From NCBI RefSeq assembly GCF_028994805.1, contig NZ_JAJQQP010000009.1, positions 215,019 to 279,018 of the forward strand: a stretch of 64,000 bases of DNA, written 5' to 3'. This document shows positions 10,269 to 61,172 of the stretch, in pieces. The translations under genes and the position numbers were made by a program. The stretch comes from Promicromonospora iranensis (GTDB taxonomy: Bacteria > Actinomycetota > Actinomycetes > Actinomycetales > Cellulomonadaceae). The notes under the pieces were generated by a model. That model was given only the letters and a program-made list of their open reading frames with translations. It had not been told where the DNA came from and searched no databases. Within the stretch, counting starts at the first letter, position 1; each line of letters opens with the position of its first letter.

Positions 10269-11705
10269 ATGCGCAGAGCCAAGATCGTGTGCACCATCGG
10301 ACCCGCCACGGAGTCCCCGGAGATGCTCCGGGAACTCGTAGACGCCGGCATGAACGTGGCGCGGATCAACCGCAGCCACGGCGAGCAGGAAGCGCACGCG
10401 GCCGTCTACCGTCACGTGCGAGAGGCCGCGAAGGCGGCCGGAAAATCGGTCGCGGTACTCGTCGACCTGCAGGGCCCCAAGATCCGGCTCGGCCGGTTCG
10501 CGGGGGACGAAAAGCATTTCTTGAACAAGGGCGACACCTTCACCATCACGACCGAGGACGTCCTCGGTACCCAGGAGATCGTGTCGACCACCCACAAGGG
10601 TCTGCCGAACGACGCCCAGGTGGGCGACCCGCTGCTGATCGACGACGGCAAGGTGCGCGTGCGCGTCACCGCCGTCGAGGGGCCGCGTGTCATCACCGAG
10701 GTCGAGGTCCCGGGACCCGTCTCGAACAACAAGGGCATCAACCTGCCCGGTGTCGCGGTCTCCGTGCCGGCGCTGTCCGACAAGGACGAGTCGGACCTGC
10801 GCTGGGCCCTCAAGCTCGGTGCCGACTTCATCGCGCTGTCGTTCGTGCGGTCCGCCAAGGACTACGAGGACGTCCGCCGGGTGATGGAGGAGGAGGGCCG
10901 CACGGTCCCCGTCATCGCCAAGATCGAGAAGCCGCAGGCCGTGGACAACCTCGCCGAGGTCATCGCCGCGTTCGACGGTGTCATGGTGGCGCGCGGCGAC
11001 CTCGCGGTCGAGATGCCGCTGGAGCAGGTGCCGCTCGTGCAGAAGCGCATCGTCGAGATGGCGCGGCGCAACGCCAAGCCGGTCATCGTCGCCACGCAGG
11101 TGCTCGAGTCCATGACGACGTCGCCCACGCCGACGCGCGCCGAGGCGTCGGACTGCGCCAACGCGGTGCTCGACGGTGCCGACGCCGTGATGCTGTCGGG
11201 TGAGACGTCGGTGGGCGACTACCCGATCGTCACGGTCGAGACCATGGCCCGGATCATCGAGGCCACCGAGCAGGCGGGCCGGGAGCGCATCGCGCCGCTC
11301 GGCTCCACGCCGCACACGCGCGGTGGCGCCATCACGCGTGCCGCCGCCGAGATCGGCGAGACGCTCGGGGTCAAGTACCTCGTGACGTTCACGCAGTCGG
11401 GCGACTCCGCACGCCGGATGTCCCGCCTGCGCTCGTCGATCCCGCTGCTCGCCTTCACGCCGGAGCAGCACGTGGCCAACACGCTCGCCCTCACCTGGGG
11501 CACCACCGAGTACCTGGTGCCCAAGGTCGAGAACGTCGACGCGATGGTCGACCAGGTGGACCTGACCCTGCAGGACCAGGGCCTCGCCGAGAAGGGCGAC
11601 CTGGTCGTCGTGGTCTCGGGTGCGCCGGTCGGCGTGCCGGGTACCACCAACTCGATCCTGGTGCACCGCATCGGGTCGCACGTCGACGGCCGCAGCGTCG
11701 TCTGA
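10269..11705 (+). CDS. pyk: Pyruvate kinase
   Basis: Final step of glycolysis: phosphoenolpyruvate plus ADP to pyruvate plus ATP. At 478 aa it has normal bacterial length. It begins MRRAKIVCTIGPA with no extra N-terminal domain. The active-site barrel contains ARINRSHGE, LVDLQGPKIRLG and the catalytic-lysine strand VIAKIEKPQA. MVARGDLAVEMP provides metal ligands, and the signature continues through TPTRAEASDCANAVLDGADA and SGETS. The C-terminal allosteric-type domain is intact (ITRAAAEIGETLG to the end). A leaderless promoter precedes it, and a long palindrome made of the 16-bp unit starts 10 bp after the stop. Confidence 0.97.
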   Translation: MRRAKIVCTIGPATESPEMLRELVDAGMNVARINRSHGEQEAHAAVYRHVREAAKAAGKSVAVLVDLQGPKIRLGRFAGDEKHFLNKGDTFTITTEDVLGTQEIVSTTHKGLPNDAQVGDPLLIDDGKVRVRVTAVEGPRVITEVEVPGPVSNNKGINLPGVAVSVPALSDKDESDLRWALKLGADFIALSFVRSAKDYEDVRRVMEEEGRTVPVIAKIEKPQAVDNLAEVIAAFDGVMVARGDLAVEMPLEQVPLVQKRIVEMARRNAKPVIVATQVLESMTTSPTPTRAEASDCANAVLDGADAVMLSGETSVGDYPIVTVETMARIIEATEQAGRERIAPLGSTPHTRGGAITRAAAEIGETLGVKYLVTFTQSGDSARRMSRLRSSIPLLAFTPEQHVANTLALTWGTTEYLVPKVENVDAMVDQVDLTLQDQGLAEKGDLVVVVSGAPVGVPGTTNSILVHRIGSHVDGRSVV

Positions 11706-11714
11706 CCGGCCTGC

Positions 11715-11805
11715 GCCGAGGTAGACCCGTGGCGAGATAGAACTGGGGCCGGACGCCGATCAGCGTTCCGGCCCCAGTTCTGTCTCGCCACGGGTCTACC
11801 TCGGC
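11715..11805 (+). repeat. Long palindrome of 16-bp units (locus 1), 3' of pyk
   Basis: Two 39-bp arms (11715-11753 and 11767-11805) differ at one position and enclose a 13-nt loop. Each arm holds two tandem 16-bp units: on the plus strand CGAGGTAGACCCGTGG (11717-11732) and CGAGATAGAACTGGGG (11733-11748), mirrored on the minus strand. As RNA the single mismatch is a G-U pair, so the hairpin would be almost perfect. It could terminate pyk, but there is no U-tract and it ends 21 bp before the -10 of the next gene. Related units occur at 18518-18577 and 60229-60338. Confidence 0.85.
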
Positions 11806-11839
11806 GAACGCAGGGAAAGATGTCGCTATTGTTCCCGTC

Positions 11840-13564
11840 GTGACCCGTTCATTCCCCTGGACCCGCCTCGGCTTCGCCGCCCTCGTCGTGGTCTCCCTCG
11901 GGCTCGGGTGGTGGGGTCTCGCGCTCGACACCAGCCACCAGCCCGGCCGCACCTGGTGGGACGTCGTCTATCACGACCTCCAGCTCTTCGTGATGGGCGC
12001 CGACCCGGCCAGCAGCGGAGGGCAGCTCTCCTGGCAGCTCCAGGTCGCCCGGTTCCTCGCGCCGGCCACCGCCGTCTACGCGCTGTTCGAGGCGGCGCGC
12101 GCCCTGTTCACCGGGGAGATCCGCCGGTTCAGGGACCGTCGCGCCCGCGACCACGCGATAGTCGTCGGCGAGACCGACGCCGCAGACACGGTCGCCGCCG
12201 CCCTCGAGGCGGCGGGCCACCGGGTGCTGCGCACCCCGGACGCCTCCGGCCTGCACGACGTCGGCCTCACCGGCGCGACGGTCCTGTACGCGTGCGGCGA
12301 CGACTCGGACGAGGCGACGGCGAACGTGCTGACCGTGGCGGAGGCCGAGAACGCCGTCCGCGCCGCAGGCCGGGGCCCCGAGCGGCTGTACGCCCACGTC
12401 AGCGACCCCGACCTCGCTGTCGCCCTCCAGGCGCGGCACCTCAGCTGCGCCGAGCCGGGCGTCGACTTCTTCACGCTCGACGTCATCGCCGCGCAGGCGC
12501 TCGCCGTGCGCGAGGTGCGGCGGATGGTGGACGCTCCGGGCGGTCCGCCCCCGCTGACCCGGGTGCTCGTGGTCGGTTCCGGTGAGTTCGCCAAGGCCCT
12601 CGTGGTGGGCCTGGCGCGCGAGTGGGAGCTCGCCGGGGACGGGGTGCGGCTGGCCGTCGGCCTACTGGCGGACGACGCCGGGCAGGTCGTCGAGGCGCTG
12701 CGGGCACGTTGGTCGCCGGTGGCGGAGAAGATCGAGCTGCGGGTGGCGCCCGCGCTCGGCACGGGCAGCCTCGGGCCGCCCGACGTGGTCTACGTGTGCC
12801 ACTCCTCCGACGGCACGTCCCTGCGGGTGGCCCTCACGGCCACGAAGCTGTGGCACGGTGGCCCGGGGTCGCTCGTGCTCCTGCTGGACGGGCTGGCCGG
12901 GCTGACGGGCGCCTTCGGCACGGAGGCGTCGCGCGTGCTCGACAACCTGGACGGCCGCCTGCGCACGGTGACCATGCGGGACCTGCTCGCCGAGGTCGAG
13001 CGCGAGGAGGCGCGGGCGCACGCCGACATGTACGAGCGGATCGCGCGGTCCGTGCACCACGTGTACCTGCGCAACCAGCGCGAGCGGGGCGTGGGCTGGG
13101 GCTCGGTCCCCGCGATGGTGCGCTGGGAGGACCTGCCCGAGGACCTGCGGGCCTCCAACCGGGGCTGGGTCGTCGGGCTGCCCGAGCGGCTGGCCCGGAT
13201 GGGTGCGACCATCGCGCCGCGCGACGGCGCTCCCGAGGTCGTGTTCGAGGGTGCGGAGCTGGACAAGCTCGCCGAGGCCGAGCACGAGCTGTGGGAGTCG
13301 GTGCGGGTGGCGCAGGGCTGGCGCAGCGGGCCGGTGCGGGACGACGCCGCCAAGGTGCACCCGATGATCGGCGTGCCGTGGGCGGAGCTGCCCGAGGAGA
13401 ACCGGGAGAAGGATCGTGACGTCGTGCGGCTCCTGCCCGAGATCCTCGCGGAGTTCGGCCTGGAGGTCGTGCGGTACGCGGAGGGCTACGGCCACGGCGG
13501 CTACGACGGCGCGGCGGTGGAAGGTGCGGGGATCGCACCGGCCGGGCCGGGCGTCGTCAGGTAG
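11840..13564 (+). CDS. Membrane protein with Rossmann (TrkA/RCK-like) regions and C-terminal RyR domain
   Basis: 574 aa, function unknown. Residues ~9-29 and ~67-90 are hydrophobic and probably membrane-spanning; the loop between them has no TVGYG potassium filter. Two nucleotide-binding-like segments follow, HAIVVGETDAADTVAAAL (~105) and RVLVVGSGEFAKALVVGL (~243), resembling a tandem RCK/TrkA-N region. Residues ~473-541 match the RyR (ryanodine receptor repeat) family: WESVRVAQGWRSGPVRDD, KVHPMIGVPWAELPEE, KDRDVVRLLPEIL. The fold order suggests a ligand-sensing membrane protein, perhaps an ion-handling one (inference). The GTG start follows TATTGT (11827-11832) by 7 bp, a likely leaderless start. 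It stands alone, between the pyk palindrome and a tRNA gene. Confidence 0.8.
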   Translation: MTRSFPWTRLGFAALVVVSLGLGWWGLALDTSHQPGRTWWDVVYHDLQLFVMGADPASSGGQLSWQLQVARFLAPATAVYALFEAARALFTGEIRRFRDRRARDHAIVVGETDAADTVAAALEAAGHRVLRTPDASGLHDVGLTGATVLYACGDDSDEATANVLTVAEAENAVRAAGRGPERLYAHVSDPDLAVALQARHLSCAEPGVDFFTLDVIAAQALAVREVRRMVDAPGGPPPLTRVLVVGSGEFAKALVVGLAREWELAGDGVRLAVGLLADDAGQVVEALRARWSPVAEKIELRVAPALGTGSLGPPDVVYVCHSSDGTSLRVALTATKLWHGGPGSLVLLLDGLAGLTGAFGTEASRVLDNLDGRLRTVTMRDLLAEVEREEARAHADMYERIARSVHHVYLRNQRERGVGWGSVPAMVRWEDLPEDLRASNRGWVVGLPERLARMGATIAPRDGAPEVVFEGAELDKLAEAEHELWESVRVAQGWRSGPVRDDAAKVHPMIGVPWAELPEENREKDRDVVRLLPEILAEFGLEVVRYAEGYGHGGYDGAAVEGAGIAPAGPGVVR

Positions 13565-13652: not shown

Positions 13653-13736
13653 TGCCGGGTGTGGGACTCGAACCCACACGCCCTCGCGGGCAGCGCTTTT
13701 TGAGAGCGCCGCGTCTGCCTGTTCCGCCAACCCGGC
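13653..13736 (-). tRNA. tRNA-Leu (anticodon CAA)
   Basis: On the minus strand the 7-bp acceptor stem GCCGGGT pairs with ACCCGGC. The anticodon stem is GCGCT/AGCGC around the loop CTCAAAA, giving anticodon CAA, which reads UUG. A long variable arm (GCCCGCGAGGGC) marks the class II shape of tRNA-Leu, and the T-arm GTGGGTTCGAGTCCCAC is canonical. The discriminator base is A and CCA is not encoded. It lies between two plus-strand genes; no integrase or att-like duplication is nearby. Confidence 0.95.
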
Positions 13737-15329: not shown

Positions 15330-15770
15330 TCAGCCCAGGATCATGCAGGTCAGGCGCGCGGTGCACACCCGCTTGCCCGCGTCGTCGGTGATGGCGATCT
15401 CGTACGACGCCGTCGTGCGCCCCAGGTGAACCGCGGTCGCGGTGCCCGTGACGTAACCCTCACGGGCGCCGCGATGGTGGGTGGCGCTGACCTCGATGCC
15501 CACCGTCTGCTTGCCGGGGCCGGCGTGCGCCTGCGCCGCGAGCGAGCCGAGCGTCTCGGCGAGCACCACCGACGCACCGCCGTGCAGCAGGCCGGCCGGC
15601 TGGGTGTTGCCCTTGACGGGGATGCGTCCGACCGCGCGGTCCGGCGCGAGCTCCAGCACCTCCATCTCCATCCGCTCGAAGAGCGTGCCGGTCGTGTCGG
15701 CGCCGGCGTACAGGGCTTTCCAGTCGGCTGCGGCCTCGGAGGGCGTCGCGGAAGCGCTCGTGTCAGTCAT
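15330..15770 (-). CDS. PaaI-family hotdog thioesterase
   Basis: 146 aa single hotdog domain acting on acyl-CoA thioesters. The core motif is GLLHGGASVVLAETLGSLAA, where the HGG and the acidic residue of the following helix are the usual catalytic features. Also present are GRIPVKGNTQPAG and a terminal strand VCTARLTCMIL. The ATG at 15770 is chosen because a longer open frame upstream runs across the polA promoter. It is divergent from polA with only 19 bp between the two start codons. Substrate unknown; PaaI-type enzymes often act on aromatic-acid CoA esters. Confidence 0.85.
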   Translation of the reverse strand: MTDTSASATPSEAAADWKALYAGADTTGTLFERMEMEVLELAPDRAVGRIPVKGNTQPAGLLHGGASVVLAETLGSLAAQAHAGPGKQTVGIEVSATHHRGAREGYVTGTATAVHLGRTTASYEIAITDDAGKRVCTARLTCMILG

Positions 15771-15776
15771 GCGGGC

Positions 15777-15782
15777 TATGTT
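15777..15782 (+). promoter_or_regulatory. -10 element for leaderless polA
   Basis: TATGTT is followed after 7 bp by the polA GTG. The -10 lies in the 19-bp gap between polA and the divergent thioesterase, so its -35 must sit inside the thioesterase coding region. Confidence 0.5.
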
Positions 15783-15789
15783 GTCAGGC

Positions 15790-18507
15790 GTGACCTCCAC
15801 CGTGCCAAGCCGTACTCCGGGCAAGCCTGCGTCAGGCCGCCCCCGTCTCCTGCTGATCGATGGCCACTCCATGGCCTATCGGGCGTTCTACGCGCTGCCC
15901 GACACCCTCGCGACCAGCTCAGGACAGATCACCAACGCCGTCTACGGCTTCACGTCGATGCTGACGAACCTGCTGCGGGACGAGCAGCCCACGCACCTCG
16001 CCGTGGCGTTCGACGCGGGCCGTGTCACCTTCCGCACCGAGCGGTTCCCCGCGTACAAGGGGACACGGGACGCCACGCCGGACGCGTTCAAGGGACAGGT
16101 CCCGCTCATCAAGGAGGTGCTCGACGCCCTCCACGTCTCCTCGATCGAGCTCGCCGGCATCGAGGCCGACGACATCCTGGCGACCCTGGCCCTGCAGGCC
16201 AAGGCCGCGGGCATGGAGGTGCTGGTCTGCTCGGGTGACCGCGACACCCTCCAGCTGGTGAACGGCGACGTCACGGTCCTGTACCCCAAGAAGGGCGTGT
16301 CCGAGCTGGCCCGCATGGACCCCGCGGCGGTCGAGGCCAAGTACGGCGTGCCCCCGGAGCGCTACCCCGACCTCGCGGCGCTCGTGGGTGAGACCAGCGA
16401 CAACCTGCCGGGCGTGCCCGGCGTCGGGCCCAAGACCGCCGCCAAGTGGATCACCGCGCACGGCGGCCTCGCCGCCCTGCTCGACGCGGCCGACGAGATC
16501 AAGGGCAAGGCGGGCGAGAACCTGCGCGAGCACCTGGACCAGGTCCGGGTCAACCGGGAACTGAACGCCCTGCTGACCGACGTCGAGCTGCCGCTCGGTG
16601 TGGCCGATCTCGCCCTGGAGGGCTTCGACCGGGAGGCCGTGCACCTCGTCTCGGACACGCTGCAGTTCGGCCAGCTGCGCGACCGCCTCCTCGCCGTCGA
16701 CCCCTCGGGCGCCGCCGCGGACGAGACCCCCGTGACCGCCGGAGTCGAGCTCGACCTGGCCGACGTCGCCCCCGGCGCCCTCGGTGCCTGGCTCGCCGCC
16801 CGCTCGGAGCACGTGGGCGTCGCCGTGGCCGGCAAGACGGTGGCGGGCGGCGGGGACGCCTGGGCGGTGGCCGTGGCGGAGCCCGGCGGCGAGTCCGCCT
16901 ATCTCGACCTCACCCAGCTCGGCGCCGACGACGAGAAGGCGCTCGCGGCATGGTTGGCCGACCCGGCGGCGCCCAAGATCCTGCACGGCGCGAAGGCGGC
17001 GGCCCACATGCTCGCCGCACGGAGCATGGACCTCGAGGGCGTCACGTTCGACACGGAGCTCGCCGCCTATCTGTGCTACCCCGACCAGCGTGGCTACGAC
17101 CTGGGCGACCTCGCGGTGCGCCACCTCGGCCGGGAGCTGAAGGTCGCGGAACCCGACGGTGCGCAGGGCGCCCTGGACCTCTCGCTCGAGGGCGAGACGG
17201 AGGGGCAGGCGGAGGCGGTGCGCGCCCACGGCGTGGCCGAGCTGGCCACGGCCCTGGCGGGTGAGCTCGCCGACCGTGGCGCCACCCACCTGCTGGACGA
17301 CGTCGAGCTCCCGCTGTCCGGCGTGCTGGCGCGGATGGAGCGCATCGGCATCGCCGCGGACACGGAGTACCTGACCGGCCTGGAGCGGCAGTTCGCCCAG
17401 GGTGTCGCGGACGCCGCCGCAGCGGCGTACGACGTGATCGGCCGGGAGGTGAACCTCGGCAGCCCCAAGCAGCTGCAGGAGGTGTTGTTCGACCAGCTGG
17501 GCATGCCCAAGACCAAGAAGATCAAGACCGGCTACACGACCGACGCGGCGAGCCTGCAGGACCTGTTCGTCAAGACGGAGCACCCGTTCCTCGCCCACCT
17601 GCTCACGCACCGCGACGTGGCGCGCCTGCGGGTCACGGTGGAAGGGCTGCTCAAGTCCGTCGCGCCCGACGGCCGCATCCACACGACGTTCCAGCAGACC
17701 ATCGCAGCGACCGGGCGCCTGAGCTCGACCGACCCGAACCTGCAGAACATCCCGATCCGCACGGAGGCGGGCCGGCAGATCCGGCGCGCGTTCCAGGTCG
17801 GCGACGGCTACGAGTCGCTGCTGACCGCCGACTACAGCCAGATCGAGATGCGGATCATGGCGCACCTCTCGGGCGACGAGGGCCTGATCGCCGCGTTCAA
17901 CTCGGGGGAGGACCTGCACCGGTACGTGGGCTCGCGCGTGTTCGAGGTGGCGCCCGCCGACGTGACGCCGGAGATGCGGTCCAAGATCAAGGCGATGTCG
18001 TACGGGCTGGCCTACGGGCTGAGCGCGTTCGGCCTCTCGCAGCAGCTGGGCATCGCGACGGGCGAGGCGCAGACGCTCATGGACGACTACTTCGAGCGGT
18101 TCGGCGGCGTGCGCGACTACCTCTCGGGCGTGGTCGAGGAAGCGCGCGCGACCGGGTACACCGCGACCATCCTCGGACGGCGCCGTTACCTGCCCGACCT
18201 CACGAGCGACAACCGGCAGCGCCGTCAGATGGCTGAGCGCATGGCGCTCAACGCACCCATCCAGGGCAGCGCCGCCGACATCATCAAGCTCGCCATGCTC
18301 AAGGTGCAGCACGAGCTCGACGCGCGCGGGCTCAGCTCGCGCCTGCTGCTGCAGGTGCACGACGAGCTCGTGCTCGAGGTAGCGCCGGGGGAGCGGGCCG
18401 CCGCCGAGGAGGTGCTGCGCAGCCAGATGGGTGCGGCATTCGTGCTGAACGTACCGCTCGACGTCTCGGTCGGCACGGGTGCCACCTGGCACGAGGCCGG
18501 CCACTGA
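15790..18507 (+). CDS. polA: DNA polymerase I
   Basis: 905 aa; fills gaps in excision repair and removes RNA primers. The N-terminal 5'-nuclease domain (~residues 18-290) begins LLLIDGHSMAYRAFYALPD and has EADDILATLA, SGDRDTLQLV and the helix-hairpin-helix GVPGVGPKTA. The middle 3'-5' exonuclease-like domain (~318-494) lacks its catalytic acids: the DxE strand is replaced by VGVAVAGKTVAGGG and the second motif by HGAKAAAHML. It is therefore probably not proofreading, as known for mycobacterial PolA. The polymerase domain has motif A LLTADYSQIEMRI (~678), motif B RSKIKAMSYGLAYG and motif C QVHDELVLEV (~854). GTG at 15790 is preferred over an upstream frame that would cover the divergent gene. 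Confidence 0.97.
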   Translation: MTSTVPSRTPGKPASGRPRLLLIDGHSMAYRAFYALPDTLATSSGQITNAVYGFTSMLTNLLRDEQPTHLAVAFDAGRVTFRTERFPAYKGTRDATPDAFKGQVPLIKEVLDALHVSSIELAGIEADDILATLALQAKAAGMEVLVCSGDRDTLQLVNGDVTVLYPKKGVSELARMDPAAVEAKYGVPPERYPDLAALVGETSDNLPGVPGVGPKTAAKWITAHGGLAALLDAADEIKGKAGENLREHLDQVRVNRELNALLTDVELPLGVADLALEGFDREAVHLVSDTLQFGQLRDRLLAVDPSGAAADETPVTAGVELDLADVAPGALGAWLAARSEHVGVAVAGKTVAGGGDAWAVAVAEPGGESAYLDLTQLGADDEKALAAWLADPAAPKILHGAKAAAHMLAARSMDLEGVTFDTELAAYLCYPDQRGYDLGDLAVRHLGRELKVAEPDGAQGALDLSLEGETEGQAEAVRAHGVAELATALAGELADRGATHLLDDVELPLSGVLARMERIGIAADTEYLTGLERQFAQGVADAAAAAYDVIGREVNLGSPKQLQEVLFDQLGMPKTKKIKTGYTTDAASLQDLFVKTEHPFLAHLLTHRDVARLRVTVEGLLKSVAPDGRIHTTFQQTIAATGRLSSTDPNLQNIPIRTEAGRQIRRAFQVGDGYESLLTADYSQIEMRIMAHLSGDEGLIAAFNSGEDLHRYVGSRVFEVAPADVTPEMRSKIKAMSYGLAYGLSAFGLSQQLGIATGEAQTLMDDYFERFGGVRDYLSGVVEEARATGYTATILGRRRYLPDLTSDNRQRRQMAERMALNAPIQGSAADIIKLAMLKVQHELDARGLSSRLLLQVHDELVLEVAPGERAAAEEVLRSQMGAAFVLNVPLDVSVGTGATWHEAGH

Positions 18508-18517
18508 CCCACCCCCT

Positions 18518-18577
18518 CCGAAGTAGTCACCTGGCGCCTGCTCGCCTGACGACTACCTCGCCAGGCGACTACCTCGG
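18518..18577 (+). repeat. 16-bp-unit palindrome (locus 2), between polA and methyltransferase
   Basis: Arms 18518-18536 and 18559-18577 (19 bp) match at 17 positions. The plus-strand unit is CGAAGTAGTCACCTGG (18519-18534). On the minus strand two tandem units occur, CGAGGTAGTCGCCTGG (18576 down to 18561) and CGAGGTAGTCGTCAGG (18560 down to 18545), in exact 16-bp register. It lies between convergent genes, and the TAG stop of the methyltransferase is part of one unit. Confidence 0.8.
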
Positions 18578-19372
18578 CAGTTCGGTGACGAAGACTGCGG
18601 TGCCCGGGAGGTAGCGGCCGCGTTCCGGGCCCCAGCCGCCCCAGACCTGGTCGTTCCACTCCGGCCACTCGGGTTCGACCAGGTCCACCAGGCGCAGCCC
18701 GGCTCCGACGACGTCCCGCACGTGGTCGCCGACGGTGCGGTGGTACTCCGCGTAGAGCACCCGCCCGTCCGCGGCGGCCTCGACGTAGGGACGGCGGTCG
18801 AAGTACGAGCGGGACGCCGTCAGGCCACGCTGCGTCGGGTCGTCGGGGAACGCCCACCGCAGCGGGTGGGTCACGGAGAACACCCAGCGCCCGCCCGGAC
18901 GCAGCACCCGGGCGGCCTCGCGGTGCACGGTGCCGGCGTCGGGCACGAAGGGCAGTGCGCCGAAGGACGTGAACACGACGTCGAACGACCCGTCCGCGAA
19001 CGGCAGCGCCCGGGCGTCCGCCTGGACCCGCGGCACGACGACACCCGTGGCGGCGTCGAGCCGCCCCGCACCGGCCAGCATGCTCGCCGAGTAGTCGGTC
19101 GCGACGACCCGTGCCCCGCGGGAGGCGAGCCAGCGCGAGCAGTGCGCGGCACCGGCACCCACCTCCAGCACGTCCCGCCCGCCGACGTCGCCCAGGAGGC
19201 CGGCCTCCGCCTCGGACAGGCCCTCCGGGCCCCAGCGGAAACCGGCGTCGCCGAGGAAGTCGCGGTGCTCTTCGAGGTACTCGTCGGCGTTGGCGTCCCA
19301 CCAGCTGCGGGCGGCGCGGCCGTCGTCGGGCACGTCGCGATAACCGAAGGACACCGGCTGGTCATGGCTCAC
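18569..19372 (-). CDS. Class I SAM-dependent methyltransferase
   Basis: 267 aa. The SAM-binding motif I is DVLEVGAGAAHCSRWLA (~residue 67), with the acidic end of strand 2 at VVATDYSASML, motif II at SFDVVFTSFGALPF and motif III at RVLRPGGRWVFSVTHPL. The N-terminal ARSWWDANADEYLEEH resembles the UbiE/Methyltransf_11 group. The substrate is not predictable. The start is a GTG at 19372. The stop codon lies inside the 16-bp-unit palindrome shared with polA's 3' end. Confidence 0.85.
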   Translation of the reverse strand: MSHDQPVSFGYRDVPDDGRAARSWWDANADEYLEEHRDFLGDAGFRWGPEGLSEAEAGLLGDVGGRDVLEVGAGAAHCSRWLASRGARVVATDYSASMLAGAGRLDAATGVVVPRVQADARALPFADGSFDVVFTSFGALPFVPDAGTVHREAARVLRPGGRWVFSVTHPLRWAFPDDPTQRGLTASRSYFDRRPYVEAAADGRVLYAEYHRTVGDHVRDVVGAGLRLVDLVEPEWPEWNDQVWGGWGPERGRYLPGTAVFVTELPR

Positions 19373-39596: not shown

Positions 39597-39639
39597 GCAC
39601 CTGGGCCCGGTCGGCAGACTGCCGACCGGGCCCAGGTGC
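39597..39639. terminator. Perfect 20-bp hairpin 3' of terC
   Basis: Arms 39597-39616 and 39620-39639 are exact reverse complements (20 bp, GCACCTGGGC... type) around a 3-nt loop GAC. It lies between the convergent terC and double-hotdog genes, where it could end transcription from both sides. There is no U-tract. Confidence 0.7.
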
Positions 39640-39660
39640 GGACGCACGACGTTGCCGGAT

Positions 39661-39717
39661 CACCATCCAGGTGGACTGCACCGTGGTCACACGTCGGTGT
39701 AGTCCACCTGGATGGTG
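39661..39717. terminator. Hairpin built from the last codons of the double-hotdog gene
   Basis: Arms 39661-39683 and 39695-39717 (23 bp, one mismatch) enclose an 11-nt loop. One arm is the coding sequence for the last seven or eight residues of the minus-strand gene; its stop codon lies in the loop and the other arm is 3'-untranslated. Probably a terminator for that gene. Confidence 0.7.
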
Positions 39718-40553
39718 AAGACGTCCCGATCGCCGGACCGGAGCGTCCCGGTGAACCCCTTGTCGTGCGCCTCGGGCTCGGCGGGGGCGGACGGCTCGAC
39801 GTCGACCGCGCAGGTCTGGCCGGCCGAGGCCAGGTGGTCGGCCTCCAGCCGGTACCGGCCGGCCTGCCACCGGGCGTCGGGACCCATCGCCGCCTCCAGG
39901 ACGTGGTCGAAGAGCGCGAACGTCGCGTAACCCGCGACCGACACGGGCAGCGCCGGGTGGCCGGCAAAATGCCCCTGGCACGTCGCGGCCTCCACGGAGA
40001 GCTTGGCCGTGGCGCCGCGGGCATCGACGGCGACGTCGGTGAGCGGGGCCGGCGCGCTGTAAGGACTCGCCGGCTCCGTCGCGTCGGGTGCCGTGGCCGG
40101 GCCCATCAGACGCCGGAACACGGGCACCGACAGGACCAGGTACTCGAGGTCGAGCCGCGCCACGAGATTGTCGTCGGCGTCGCGCAGCTCGGTCTCGGCG
40201 AAGGCCCGGTTGCGCCCGGACATCCGGGCGGTCGCGGTACCGCGGAGCGTGGTCAGTGTCTTGGCAGGCGGGTACATCCTGCCGACACCACGGTGGGCGA
40301 GGTAGTAGTGCTGCCCCGCCCTCGGGTTCGTGGAGGCCGCGGCGCACAGGCCGAGGATGGCGAGGTGGCGTCCACCCTCCGCCAGGTTGATGTGGGTCAT
40401 CTGACGTCCCGTCGGCGTCTGGACCGGGACCGTGGCGCGGGCCAGCCCAGGAGCGGGGCTGGTCAGATCACCGAGTGCGTAGTACGGCGGCGTCACGCAG
40501 ATCCGCGGGCCGATCTCCTCGTACGTCACCGTCGTACTCTCGACAGAGGTCAT
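39687..40553 (-). CDS. Double-hotdog-fold protein with FabZ-like motif
   Basis: 288 aa of uncertain function. The C-terminal half has TCQGHFAGHPALPVSVAGYA, close to the HFxxxPxxPG motif of FabA/FabZ hydroxyacyl dehydratases, followed by a helix ALFDHVLEAAMG. The N-terminal half (residues ~30-130, MTHINLAEGGRHLAILGLCA) looks like a second, divergent hotdog. A dehydratase or thioesterase acting on acyl-ACP or acyl-CoA is possible; catalytic residues are not certain. GGGGAGG lies 6 bp before the ATG, with a TACGTT -10 candidate just upstream, so unlike many neighbours it has a leader. No fatty-acid or polyketide genes are adjacent. Confidence 0.65.
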   Translation of the reverse strand: MTSVESTTVTYEEIGPRICVTPPYYALGDLTSPAPGLARATVPVQTPTGRQMTHINLAEGGRHLAILGLCAAASTNPRAGQHYYLAHRGVGRMYPPAKTLTTLRGTATARMSGRNRAFAETELRDADDNLVARLDLEYLVLSVPVFRRLMGPATAPDATEPASPYSAPAPLTDVAVDARGATAKLSVEAATCQGHFAGHPALPVSVAGYATFALFDHVLEAAMGPDARWQAGRYRLEADHLASAGQTCAVDVEPSAPAEPEAHDKGFTGTLRSGDRDVFTIQVDYTDV

Positions 40554-47038: not shown

Positions 47039-47077
47039 CCGGTCAGCCGATCGGACATCCACCGATCGGCTGACCGG
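47039..47077. terminator. Perfect 16-bp hairpin after uvrA
   Basis: CCGGTCAGCCGATCGG (47039-47054) and its exact reverse complement (47062-47077) flank the 7-nt loop ACATCCA, starting 2 bp after the uvrA stop. The segment TCCACCGATCGG is repeated again at 47081-47092, giving an alternative pairing. Probable terminator without a U-tract. Confidence 0.65.
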
Positions 47078-59301: not shown

Positions 59302-59305
59302 TTGA

Positions 59306-59365
59306 GTTGTGGGCGTGATCGTTGCGCCTGAAACGGCACGTCATAGCAACGATCACGCGCACAAC
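59306..59365. terminator. 20-bp hairpin 3' of tpiA
   Basis: Arms GTTGTGGGCGTGATCGTTGC (59306-59325) and 59346-59365 match at 19 of 20 positions around a 20-nt loop. Probable terminator of gap-pgk-tpiA. It does not contain the 16-bp unit of the other palindromes. Confidence 0.65.
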
Positions 59366-59436
59366 CCATGCTGTGTCCGAGACACTCCTGCAACCTCGCT
59401 GAGGTACTCTCGCTCGGGCGTGACGTTCCGGTGTGA

Positions 59437-59857: not shown

Positions 59858-60220
59858 GTGGCATCAGGCGGTCATGCGATTCGGGGGAGCCGGGTAGGCG
59901 CCGGCCCTCTCGGGGAGACAGAGCGCGGCGATACTGCCCCGCGCATCCGAGTTTCTTACTGGTGTGCCAACGGGCACGAGACAGCACCGACCTTCTCGGT
60001 CGGCGAGGACGTGGAAGCCCCCACGCAGTGGGACTGCCCGCGTTGTGGCTTCCCCGCGGGGATGGATCCGGTCAATCCGCCGGCTCCGGTGCGGAACGAG
60101 CCGTACAAGACGCACCTCGCCTACGTGAAGGAACGCCGGTCCGACGAGGACGGCGCAGCCCTCCTGGAGGAGGCGCTGGAGGCACTGCGGACCCGCCGCG
60201 GCGGTCGAGTGGTGCGCTAA
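59858..60220 (+). CDS. rbpA: RNA polymerase-binding protein RbpA
   Basis: Actinobacterial activator that binds group 1/2 sigma factors and stabilises the open complex. 120 aa. The basic N-terminal tail (GGHAIRGSRVGAGPLGE) is followed by the zinc-binding core SYWCANGHETAPTF ... WDCPRCGFPAG, then the sigma-interacting domain (PYKTHLAYVKERRSDEDGAA). GTG start with GAGGGGACG upstream. Only 8 bp separate its stop from a 110-bp palindrome. Confidence 0.96.
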   Translation: MASGGHAIRGSRVGAGPLGETERGDTAPRIRVSYWCANGHETAPTFSVGEDVEAPTQWDCPRCGFPAGMDPVNPPAPVRNEPYKTHLAYVKERRSDEDGAALLEEALEALRTRRGGRVVR

Positions 60221-60228
60221 GAGTTTTC

Positions 60229-60338
60229 CCGCCGAGGTAGTCATCTGGCGAAGTAGTCATGCAGCGAGGTAGTCACCCAGCGCGAACCGGGTGACTACCT
60301 CGCTGCATGACTACTTCGCCAAGCGACTACCTCGGCGG
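60229..60338 (+). repeat. 110-bp palindrome of 16-bp units (locus 3), between rbpA and pgl
   Basis: 50-bp arms (60229-60278, 60289-60338) with three mismatches and a 10-nt loop. Left arm: three tandem units at exact 16-bp spacing, CGAGGTAGTCATCTGG (60233), CGAAGTAGTCATGCAG (60249), CGAGGTAGTCACCCAG (60265). Right arm, minus strand: CGAGGTAGTCGCTTGG, CGAAGTAGTCATGCAG, CGAGGTAGTCACCCGG. It overlaps the last four codons and the TAG stop of pgl and lies between convergent genes. Probably terminates both, but its repeated sequence goes beyond what a terminator needs. Confidence 0.88.
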
Positions 60339-61172
60339 GGTGGTGGCGGCCGCCTGGGCGTCCAGGAGCCACAGTGTGCGGGCCTGGCCGACGGCGCCCG
60401 CTGCCGGGACCTCCGTCACCGAGCCGTCGGCCAGTGCGGCGGCCACCTGTTCCGCCTTCTCGGCGCCCGCCGCGACGACCCACACCTCGCGGGCGGACCG
60501 GATCGCGTCGAACGTGAGCGAGACGCGCTCGGGCGGCGGCTTGGGCGAACCGTGCACGCCCGTCGTCGTCCCCCGCGCGGCAAGGCCGTCGTGGCCGGGG
60601 AACAGGGATGCGACGTGCCCGTCGGGACCCATACCGAGCAGCAGGACGTCGAACGCCGGGACCGGGACGGCCTCCTCGCTCTGCTCGCCCGTCTGCTCAC
60701 CCGAGTACTCACCCGAGTACTCACCCGAGTACTCACGGAGGAGATCGGCGTAGGCCGCCGCGCCCTCCTCGGGCGTCGCCACCGACGTCGGCCCCGGCAT
60801 GGGGTGGACGTTGGCCGCGGGGAGCCCGTGCTCGGCGACCAGGCCGTCGAGCAGCGCCTCCCGCGCCTGGGTCTCGTTGCGGTCCGGGTCGCCGTCCGGC
60901 AGGAACCGCTCGTCGCCCCACCAGAGGTGGACGCCCGACCAGTCGACGGCCGGCACGAGCGGGCTCGCGGCCACCGCCGCGAGCGTCGCGATGCCCACCG
61001 AACCACCGGTGAGCACGACGTGCACGGGGGAGCGGACCGACTGCACGTCGAGCACGCGCGTGAGCAGCCGCGCGGCCGCGGCCTGCGCGAGCACCTCCTT
61101 GTCAGGGTGCACGACGACGAGCCGCACCCCCGGCGTCTGCCTGGACGCCGCCCCGGACGTCGACCCGGACAT
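60327..61172 (-). CDS. pgl: 6-phosphogluconolactonase
   Basis: Hydrolyses 6-phosphogluconolactone in the oxidative pentose-phosphate pathway. 281 aa. Family motifs are VVLTGGSVGIATL, WSGVHLWWGDERFLPDGDPDRN and the active-site LLLGMGPDGHVASLFPGH. Compared with the family it carries an in-frame insert (~residues 143-165) with a repeated S-G-E-Y unit, coded by a 12-bp tandem repeat. The ATG overlaps the opcA stop (ATGA). The stop codon TAG lies in the 16-bp-unit palindrome. Confidence 0.95.
   Translation of the reverse strand: MSGSTSGAASRQTPGVRLVVVHPDKEVLAQAAAARLLTRVLDVQSVRSPVHVVLTGGSVGIATLAAVAASPLVPAVDWSGVHLWWGDERFLPDGDPDRNETQAREALLDGLVAEHGLPAANVHPMPGPTSVATPEEGAAAYADLLREYSGEYSGEYSGEQTGEQSEEAVPVPAFDVLLLGMGPDGHVASLFPGHDGLAARGTTTGVHGSPKPPPERVSLTFDAIRSAREVWVVAAGAEKAEQVAAALADGSVTEVPAAGAVGQARTLWLLDAQAAATTPPR
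60696..60736 (-). repeat. 12-bp tandem repeat inside pgl
   Basis: CTCACCCGAGTA is repeated three times without change, followed by a partial fourth copy (CTCAC) and preceded by a diverged copy (CTCGCCCGTCTG). The unit is a multiple of three, so copy-number change keeps the frame; it encodes a repeated S-G-E-Y in the protein. Confidence 0.85.

Follow-up and report, generated by a model that had tools for sequence, protein, structure and literature searches.

REP repeats are usually explained by the activity of RAYT transposases, and have been described mainly in Proteobacteria. In Neisseria, inverted DNA-uptake sequences double as terminators. In E. coli, ribosome stalling is reported for REPs that lie no more than 15 nt from a stop codon (available text of PMC12306157). 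We have analyzed a 64,000-nt stretch of the Promicromonospora iranensis genome (the window, C31:215019-279018 in a 31-contig genome of 5.84 Mb and 72% GC, termed G000) in which three gene ends carry palindromes built from a repeated unit. We call these family A. No description of the family was found in the mostly open-access journal literature searched, although one may exist in print.

An earlier reading of the window from its letters alone (the sequence-only reading) had counted 13 units in exact 16-bp register at the three loci, and both inspection of the sequence and a count of CGARRTAGN7G bear this out. The pattern has 15 matches in the window where 0.88 are expected, and 100 dinucleotide shuffles gave a maximum of five. 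Twelve of the 15 fall inside the loci 60229-60338, 11715-11805 and 18518-18577; the thirteenth unit, read from the sequence, is the variant CGAGACAG at 11772-11787 on the minus strand. Octamer variants CGAGATAG and CGAGACAG both occur. The two longest inverted repeats of the window are 60228-60339 (51-nt arms, 94%) and 11706-11814 (48-nt arms, 92%). Predicted folding energies of the three loci are −104.9, −103.8 and −32.1 kcal/mol. The locus at 18518 pairs far more weakly than the others, whose fold z is −17.5 and −17.3 compared with −5.5 here. The second half of CGAGGTAG, placed at the foot of the hairpin core, is GTAG, and it base-pairs with CTAC in the predicted folds at 60228 and 11706. 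The features are collected in Table 1. An Rfam search of the window at the gathering score gave no match on the palindromes and one tRNA only (13653-13736, minus strand). The gene 3' of that for pyruvate kinase (11840-13564) has a RyR (ryanodine receptor) domain, which is unusual in bacteria.

Table 1. Family-A elements of the window and the genes that flank them (window coordinates)
Feature	Position	Strand	Basis
Family-A palindrome, convergent gap between rbpA and the 6-phosphogluconolactonase gene: two arrays of three 16-bp units, the second inverted, around a 10-nt loop	60228..60339	.	
Left-arm units CGAGGTAGTCATCTGG, CGAAGTAGTCATGCAG, CGAGGTAGTCACCCAG	60233..60280	+	
Right-arm units CGAGGTAGTCACCCGG, CGAAGTAGTCATGCAG, CGAGGTAGTCGCTTGG	60287..60334	-	
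TAG of outermost octamer, stop codon of 6-phosphogluconolactonase gene	60327..60329	-	
Family-A palindrome 3' of pyruvate kinase gene: two units, GGGGCCGGAC core, two inverted units	11706..11814	.	
Left-arm units CGAGGTAGACCCGTGG, CGAGATAGAACTGGGG	11717..11748	+	
Right-arm units CGAGACAGAACTGGGG (variant octamer), CGAGGTAGACCCGTGG	11772..11803	-	
Smaller unequal element, convergent gap between polA and methyltransferase gene: one + unit, two - units	18519..18576	.	
TAG of octamer, stop codon of methyltransferase gene	18569-18571	-	gene calls
Pyruvate kinase gene (pyk), upstream neighbor	10269..11705	+	Pfam PK, PK_C
DNA polymerase I gene (polA), upstream neighbor	15622..18507	+	Pfam DNA_pol_A; start from home-made gene caller
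Methyltransferase gene, convergent neighbor	18569..19372	-	Pfam Methyltransf_11
rbpA, upstream neighbor	59858..60220	+	Pfam RbpA
6-phosphogluconolactonase gene, convergent neighbor	60327..61127	-	Pfam Glucosamine_iso

Nested palindromes of this type occur at 86 places in G000, and at none for the reversed control pattern; GTAG on both sides is built into this search pattern. A 1.07-Mb sample of the genome (contigs C1 and C31 whole, and C3 1-200000) contains 19 family-A elements, which extrapolates to about 100 in G000. Adjacent same-strand octamers no more than 64 bp apart in this sample are spaced by 16 or 32 bp in 38 of 40 cases. With 49 elements from named Promicromonospora loci these make a set of 68, where the 49 had been retrieved with a tandem-unit pattern and the 19 without one. 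Each element has a central hairpin, on either side of which stand one to six units in tandem; every unit begins with CGARGTAG, and the two arms are inverted relative to each other. The unit is completed by an eight-base spacer near TCAYNNRG. The arms are unequal in 45 of the 68 (6/19 in G000 and 39/49 elsewhere), and at C1:230082 the right arm has two units in G000 and three in the sister genome G002. It appears that units are locally gained and lost, so that arms are often unequal. If the three loci were more than unrelated terminators, further copies in tandem and inverted order were expected; these are found at gene ends across the genome and in relatives.

The arms of an element resemble each other, which the sequence-only reading had seen as preserved pairing, reflecting selection or recent inverted duplication. 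Across the 68 elements, the spacers of opposite arms match exactly in 16 of 89 pairs in register and in 18 of 170 pairs shifted out of register (Fisher p = 0.12); within an arm, 35 of 207 pairs match exactly. In-register pairs are more alike than pairs from different elements (16 identical compared with 4.6 expected, 0/2000 shuffles). Identical spacers make up 9/66 pairs within elements and 34/880 between elements in G000; the corresponding values for P. citrea are 58/376 and 1401/16829, and the spacer repertoires of the two species differ (0/5000 permutations). Since in-register spacers do not significantly exceed shifted or same-arm ones in similarity, the likeness of the arms looks largely like local duplication rather than pair-by-pair selection, and we have rejected register-specific compensatory pairing. 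Preserved arm pairing thus describes the loci at 60228 and 11706 but does not extend to the family, and selection on pairing is unsupported in the outer units. The innermost core is somewhat better matched than chance (5.65/8 compared with 5.07, with a maximum of 5.45 in 1000 shuffles).

The elements lie after stop codons. With gene coordinates taken from a home-made gene caller, the 19 elements in G000 comprise 12 in convergent gaps, seven in co-directional gaps (6 and 1) and none in divergent gaps, where all gaps of at least 40 nt in the sample number 80, 364 and 140 respectively. Of the 40 elements from elsewhere with both neighbors known, 29 are convergent and 11 co-directional; nine more lie at locus ends, leaving their context undecided. 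Divergent gaps therefore hold 0/59 of the elements that have two known neighbors. In 65 of 100 flanking gene ends the stop lies 0-30 nt ahead of the first octamer, and many gene ends are no more than 15 nt from it. In a further 24 the TAG of an octamer is itself the stop codon (the first octamer in 20, the second in three and the third in one), nine stop at 31-150 nt, and two overlap in other ways.

Family A is one of several. Clustering of 236 hairpins found between genes in G000 and in a portion of G002 gave 12 clusters of three or more; ten are treated as dispersed families A to J, and two look like orthologous ordinary terminators. Hairpins with a stem score of at least 11 in the 1.07 Mb are distributed as 53 convergent, 83 co-directional, 14 divergent and 32 intragenic, and at a lower cut-off a hairpin is present in 55/137 convergent compared with 7/122 divergent gaps shorter than 400 nt. 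Family D is a second modular family, with GGTSRTCGGCA at a 19-bp repeat in C1 loci of G000 including L038/L039, and is kept in 7/8 slots of G002. In the window, a family E palindrome (GTTGTGGGCGTGATCGTTGC) occupies the gap 59303-59368, where the G002 slot holds family H. Two strong palindromes adjoin in one convergent gap (39597-39639 and 39660-39718) and are not repeats among the clustered hairpins, and a perfect palindrome with 16-bp arms, CCGGTCAGCCGATCGG, lies directly 3' of a gene at 47039-47077.

Comparison of 352 orthologous gaps between G000 and G002 reveals that one palindrome family is replaced by another at the same gene end. A dispersed family is present in 45 of these gaps in G000, and the G002 counterparts hold the same family in 29, another family in nine, some other hairpin in four and none in three, families being called by score thresholds under which 'none' was assigned to at least one slot with a family-A unit in it (C1:343512). 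The nine family-A slots contain family A in two cases in G002, family H in four, family I in one and another hairpin in two, and none is empty. An unrelated palindrome is thus found in 7/9 while the flanks are 91-97% identical, and some palindrome in 9/9. For the other dispersed families, the family is unchanged in 27/36 slots, from which family A differs (Fisher p = 0.006). A hairpin or element is shared by G002 in 64 of the 74 slots that have one in G000 and missing from the other ten, compared with its presence in 12 of 278 slots that are empty in G000.

Three gene ends were followed by eye through the genus. The pyk end has a hairpin in 13/13 genomes, of at least four kinds: family A in G000 and G004, one other hairpin common to G002, G005, G006, G008 and G012, a third type in G003, G009, G010 and G011, and others in G001 and G007. 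Set against the genus tree this points to replacement of the resident hairpin on the line leading to G000. Of the 11 genomes in which the polA end was recovered, three have family A or the AAC form of it, two family G and one family H; two have long insertions and three a short hairpin-free gap. One insertion, of 666 nt, replaces the small gap in G012 (L152, L176) and by eye resembles a two-gene toxin-antitoxin-type cassette; the other, of 1229 nt, takes the place of the small gap in G006 (L154). A hairpin is present at the rbpA end in 13/13 genomes, with CGARGTAG units in seven. Several unit arrays there surround a GGAGCGGGAC core, and G002 has the same core without units, so hairpin cores and unit feet appear to change separately. 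Overall, it seems that spreading repeats refill the gene ends.

A two-unit pattern scanned over 84,980 named species genomes, from which records close to our own genome are possibly absent, found 77 stretches in Promicromonospora only, mostly in P. citrea and also in P. iranensis, P. panici and P. soli. The pattern CGAGGTAGN{4,34}CTACCTCG occurs in 11 of 13 genomes of the genus and 78 of 221 of the family, 53 of the latter with at least five copies; the reversed control matched four genomes, once each. The octamer core is present at five or more copies in 12 genera. In a sample of the order the palindrome pattern matches 29 of 396 genomes, and outside our own family more than one copy is found only in G361 (29), G248 (7), G427 (6), G305 (2) and G475 (2). 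The G361 copies are closely similar 67-bp elements, and five other sampled congeners have none. The phylum sample gave matches in 20 of 396 genomes, 19 of these at one or two places each; as the reversed control also matches scattered genomes, we regard them as background. In 20 stretches from other genera the elements are mostly at gene ends, with steps of 19, 20 or 21 bp, the last in G122 and G123. One octamer-bearing element was called divergent (G180, L253:8936), and three intragenic matches look like chance.

We consider it somewhat probable that family A is a REP-like family lacking a RAYT that holds the terminator position, with copies spreading as non-autonomous repeats and acting as two-way barriers at gene ends. 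Spread would occur by recombination between copies or through some transposase. Once settled, an element would combine a translation stop with a very stable hairpin that would halt or trim convergent transcripts, and with this barrier in place an older terminator could be lost. The REP-like palindrome proposed in the sequence-only reading accords with the position, dispersal and turnover, but not with the absence of a RAYT. Termination at family A is plausible from position and predicted fold stability; a stable predicted hairpin directly after the stop codon is a feature shared with intrinsic terminators. Yet the T fraction after the stem is 0.167 (29 directions), compared with 0.247 for ordinary hairpins (154), 0.136 for other dispersed palindromes and 0.142 for the genome. 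There is thus no U-tract and no T enrichment over these 29 directions, which makes canonical intrinsic termination doubtful. In ordinary hairpins G-U outnumbers A-C on the transcript strand (27 compared with 13), whereas in co-directional dispersed palindromes the excess is not significant (22 compared with 16); the G000 and G002 orthologues in this comparison are not independent. RNA-level selection on the dispersed families is unsupported by this test, and the suggestion of a structured 3'-end RNA is left unproven. Against the barrier reading, a gene end can do without a hairpin, as in the three hairpin-free polA gaps and the ten G002 slots that have none.

The most serious alternative is that these are purely selfish non-autonomous repeats of MITE or REP type, spread by an enzyme and merely tolerated 3' of stop codons. 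The dispersed copies, patchy distribution and fast family turnover are what such repeats would give, as are the close similarity of the G361 copies and the lack of both a U-tract and a detectable bias at the RNA level. Tolerance alone does not explain why the sister species has a palindrome of some type at every one of the nine family-A slots, nor why hairpin presence per slot is conserved far above background; together these make the slot look functional. The ten proteins flanking six of the G361 elements include no transposase, being ordinary enzymes and transporters. Only two pairs of elements among the 68 lie within 4.5 kb of each other in a REPtron-like arrangement, and the genes between them are, by eye, not transposases. 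Two family-H insertions read by eye have no clear target duplication, and these searches found no mobiliser and no clean target-site duplication. We regard the purely selfish reading as possible but rather unlikely.

A different idea is that the element is a two-way insulator closing all reading frames at a gene end, selected and spread by displacing resident terminators. As 16 mod 3 = 1 and each canonical unit has a TAG, three successive units close all three frames; the inverted arm would close them for the gene on the other strand, the stem would block or trim both transcripts, and stop arrays would be selected because intergenic stops are scarce at 72% GC. All three frames are closed in 109/136 element strands, compared with 9.6% in intergenic controls matched for length and 22% in shuffles, in a set where 49 of the 68 elements were selected by the tandem pattern; in the 19 elements chosen otherwise the value is 18/38 strands, and 0/12 for one-unit elements. 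If these units were set 15 or 18 bp apart, all frames would be closed in 4% or 7%. Against it, other dispersed families such as H are almost devoid of stops, and the steps in G122 and G123 are 21 bp. We find this doubtful.

That these are ordinary terminators, whose likeness came from convergence or from common descent site by site, would account for their placement behind stop codons and in convergent gaps, and for the strong predicted folds. It leaves unexplained a common octamer and 16-bp register over unrelated sites, the recurrence of that octamer core in 12 genera, the missing T-tract, and the occupation of the same slot by unrelated families. We think this very unlikely. A binding array for a protein reading the octamer in fixed steps along the DNA is, if anything, a shade more improbable. 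It would fit the conserved octamer with variable spacers, and an exact 16-bp step in the genus that pairing does not explain; but array length runs from one to six, positions track stop codons, and the 19-, 20- or 21-bp steps of related elements in other genera do not favor the protein reading 16-bp steps that had been proposed. Classical GTAG REPs mobilized by a RAYT are scarcely credible: despite GTAG in every canonical octamer at the hairpin foot, and 'double foot' REPs ending in GTAG and CTAC described in the available part of PMC6006769, Y1_Tnp (PF01797) is absent from G000 in a profile search at E ≤ 1 and present in only 2/220 family genomes (E ≤ 0.001; control genomes matched), one with 18 octamer palindromes (G139) and one with none (G086), and the head-to-tail tandems seen in family A are rare or missing among known GTAG REPs (as far as PMC3733652 was available). 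RAYT mobilization was accordingly rejected.

As a probable RAYT-less REP-like family occupying the terminator position, family A bears on the long-standing question of terminator origin. Turnover at conserved gene ends is unusually visible in it, with unrelated palindromes refilling the terminator position between close species, so that the origin and turnover of terminators become directly testable, and several palindrome families in one genome are available for comparison. A modular family of this type in Micrococcales suggests that gene-end palindromes can multiply by means other than a RAYT.

Neisseria uptake sequences offer one parallel, a short word inverted at gene ends. The family-A octamer differs in that outside the elements it is mostly a Tyr-Leu codon pair: it occurs 103 times inside genes, compared with 67 after codon shuffling (maximum 86), and 91 of the 103 are in that frame. 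With the excess lying there, and no strong single-copy excess, we rejected a role as DNA uptake sequence. The E. coli REPs that stall ribosomes (PMC12306157, in the text available) share the position near the stop codon but are unrelated in sequence; by analogy, stalling is a further possible effect of family A. Bidirectional or U-tract-poor intrinsic terminators and hairpin clusters of GC-rich bacteria, as presented in the accessible part of PMC8355165, likewise place a stable hairpin after the stop codon and between convergent genes, but family A is repeated, with a common octamer and no U-tract, and can be swapped with unrelated palindromes between sister species. The nearest system is that of the REP repeats, of which family A is a transposase-orphan variant among gene-end palindromic repeats. 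With GTAG REPs and BIMEs, as far as these are set out in the available text of PMC3733652 and PMC6006769 (whose main texts gave no mention of Actinobacteria in a term search), it shares extragenic palindromes in many copies, a patchy taxonomic spread, a location chiefly 3' of genes and in convergent gaps, and GTAG at the hairpin foot. It departs from the RAYT/TnpA-REP systems covered there in having no Y1 transposase, and from GTAG REPs in its elements, which can exceed 100 bp and have same-arm units set head-to-tail at fixed steps. In RAYT-associated GTAG REPs the tag is unpaired and at one end only, whereas in family A the GTAG is paired and present on both sides.
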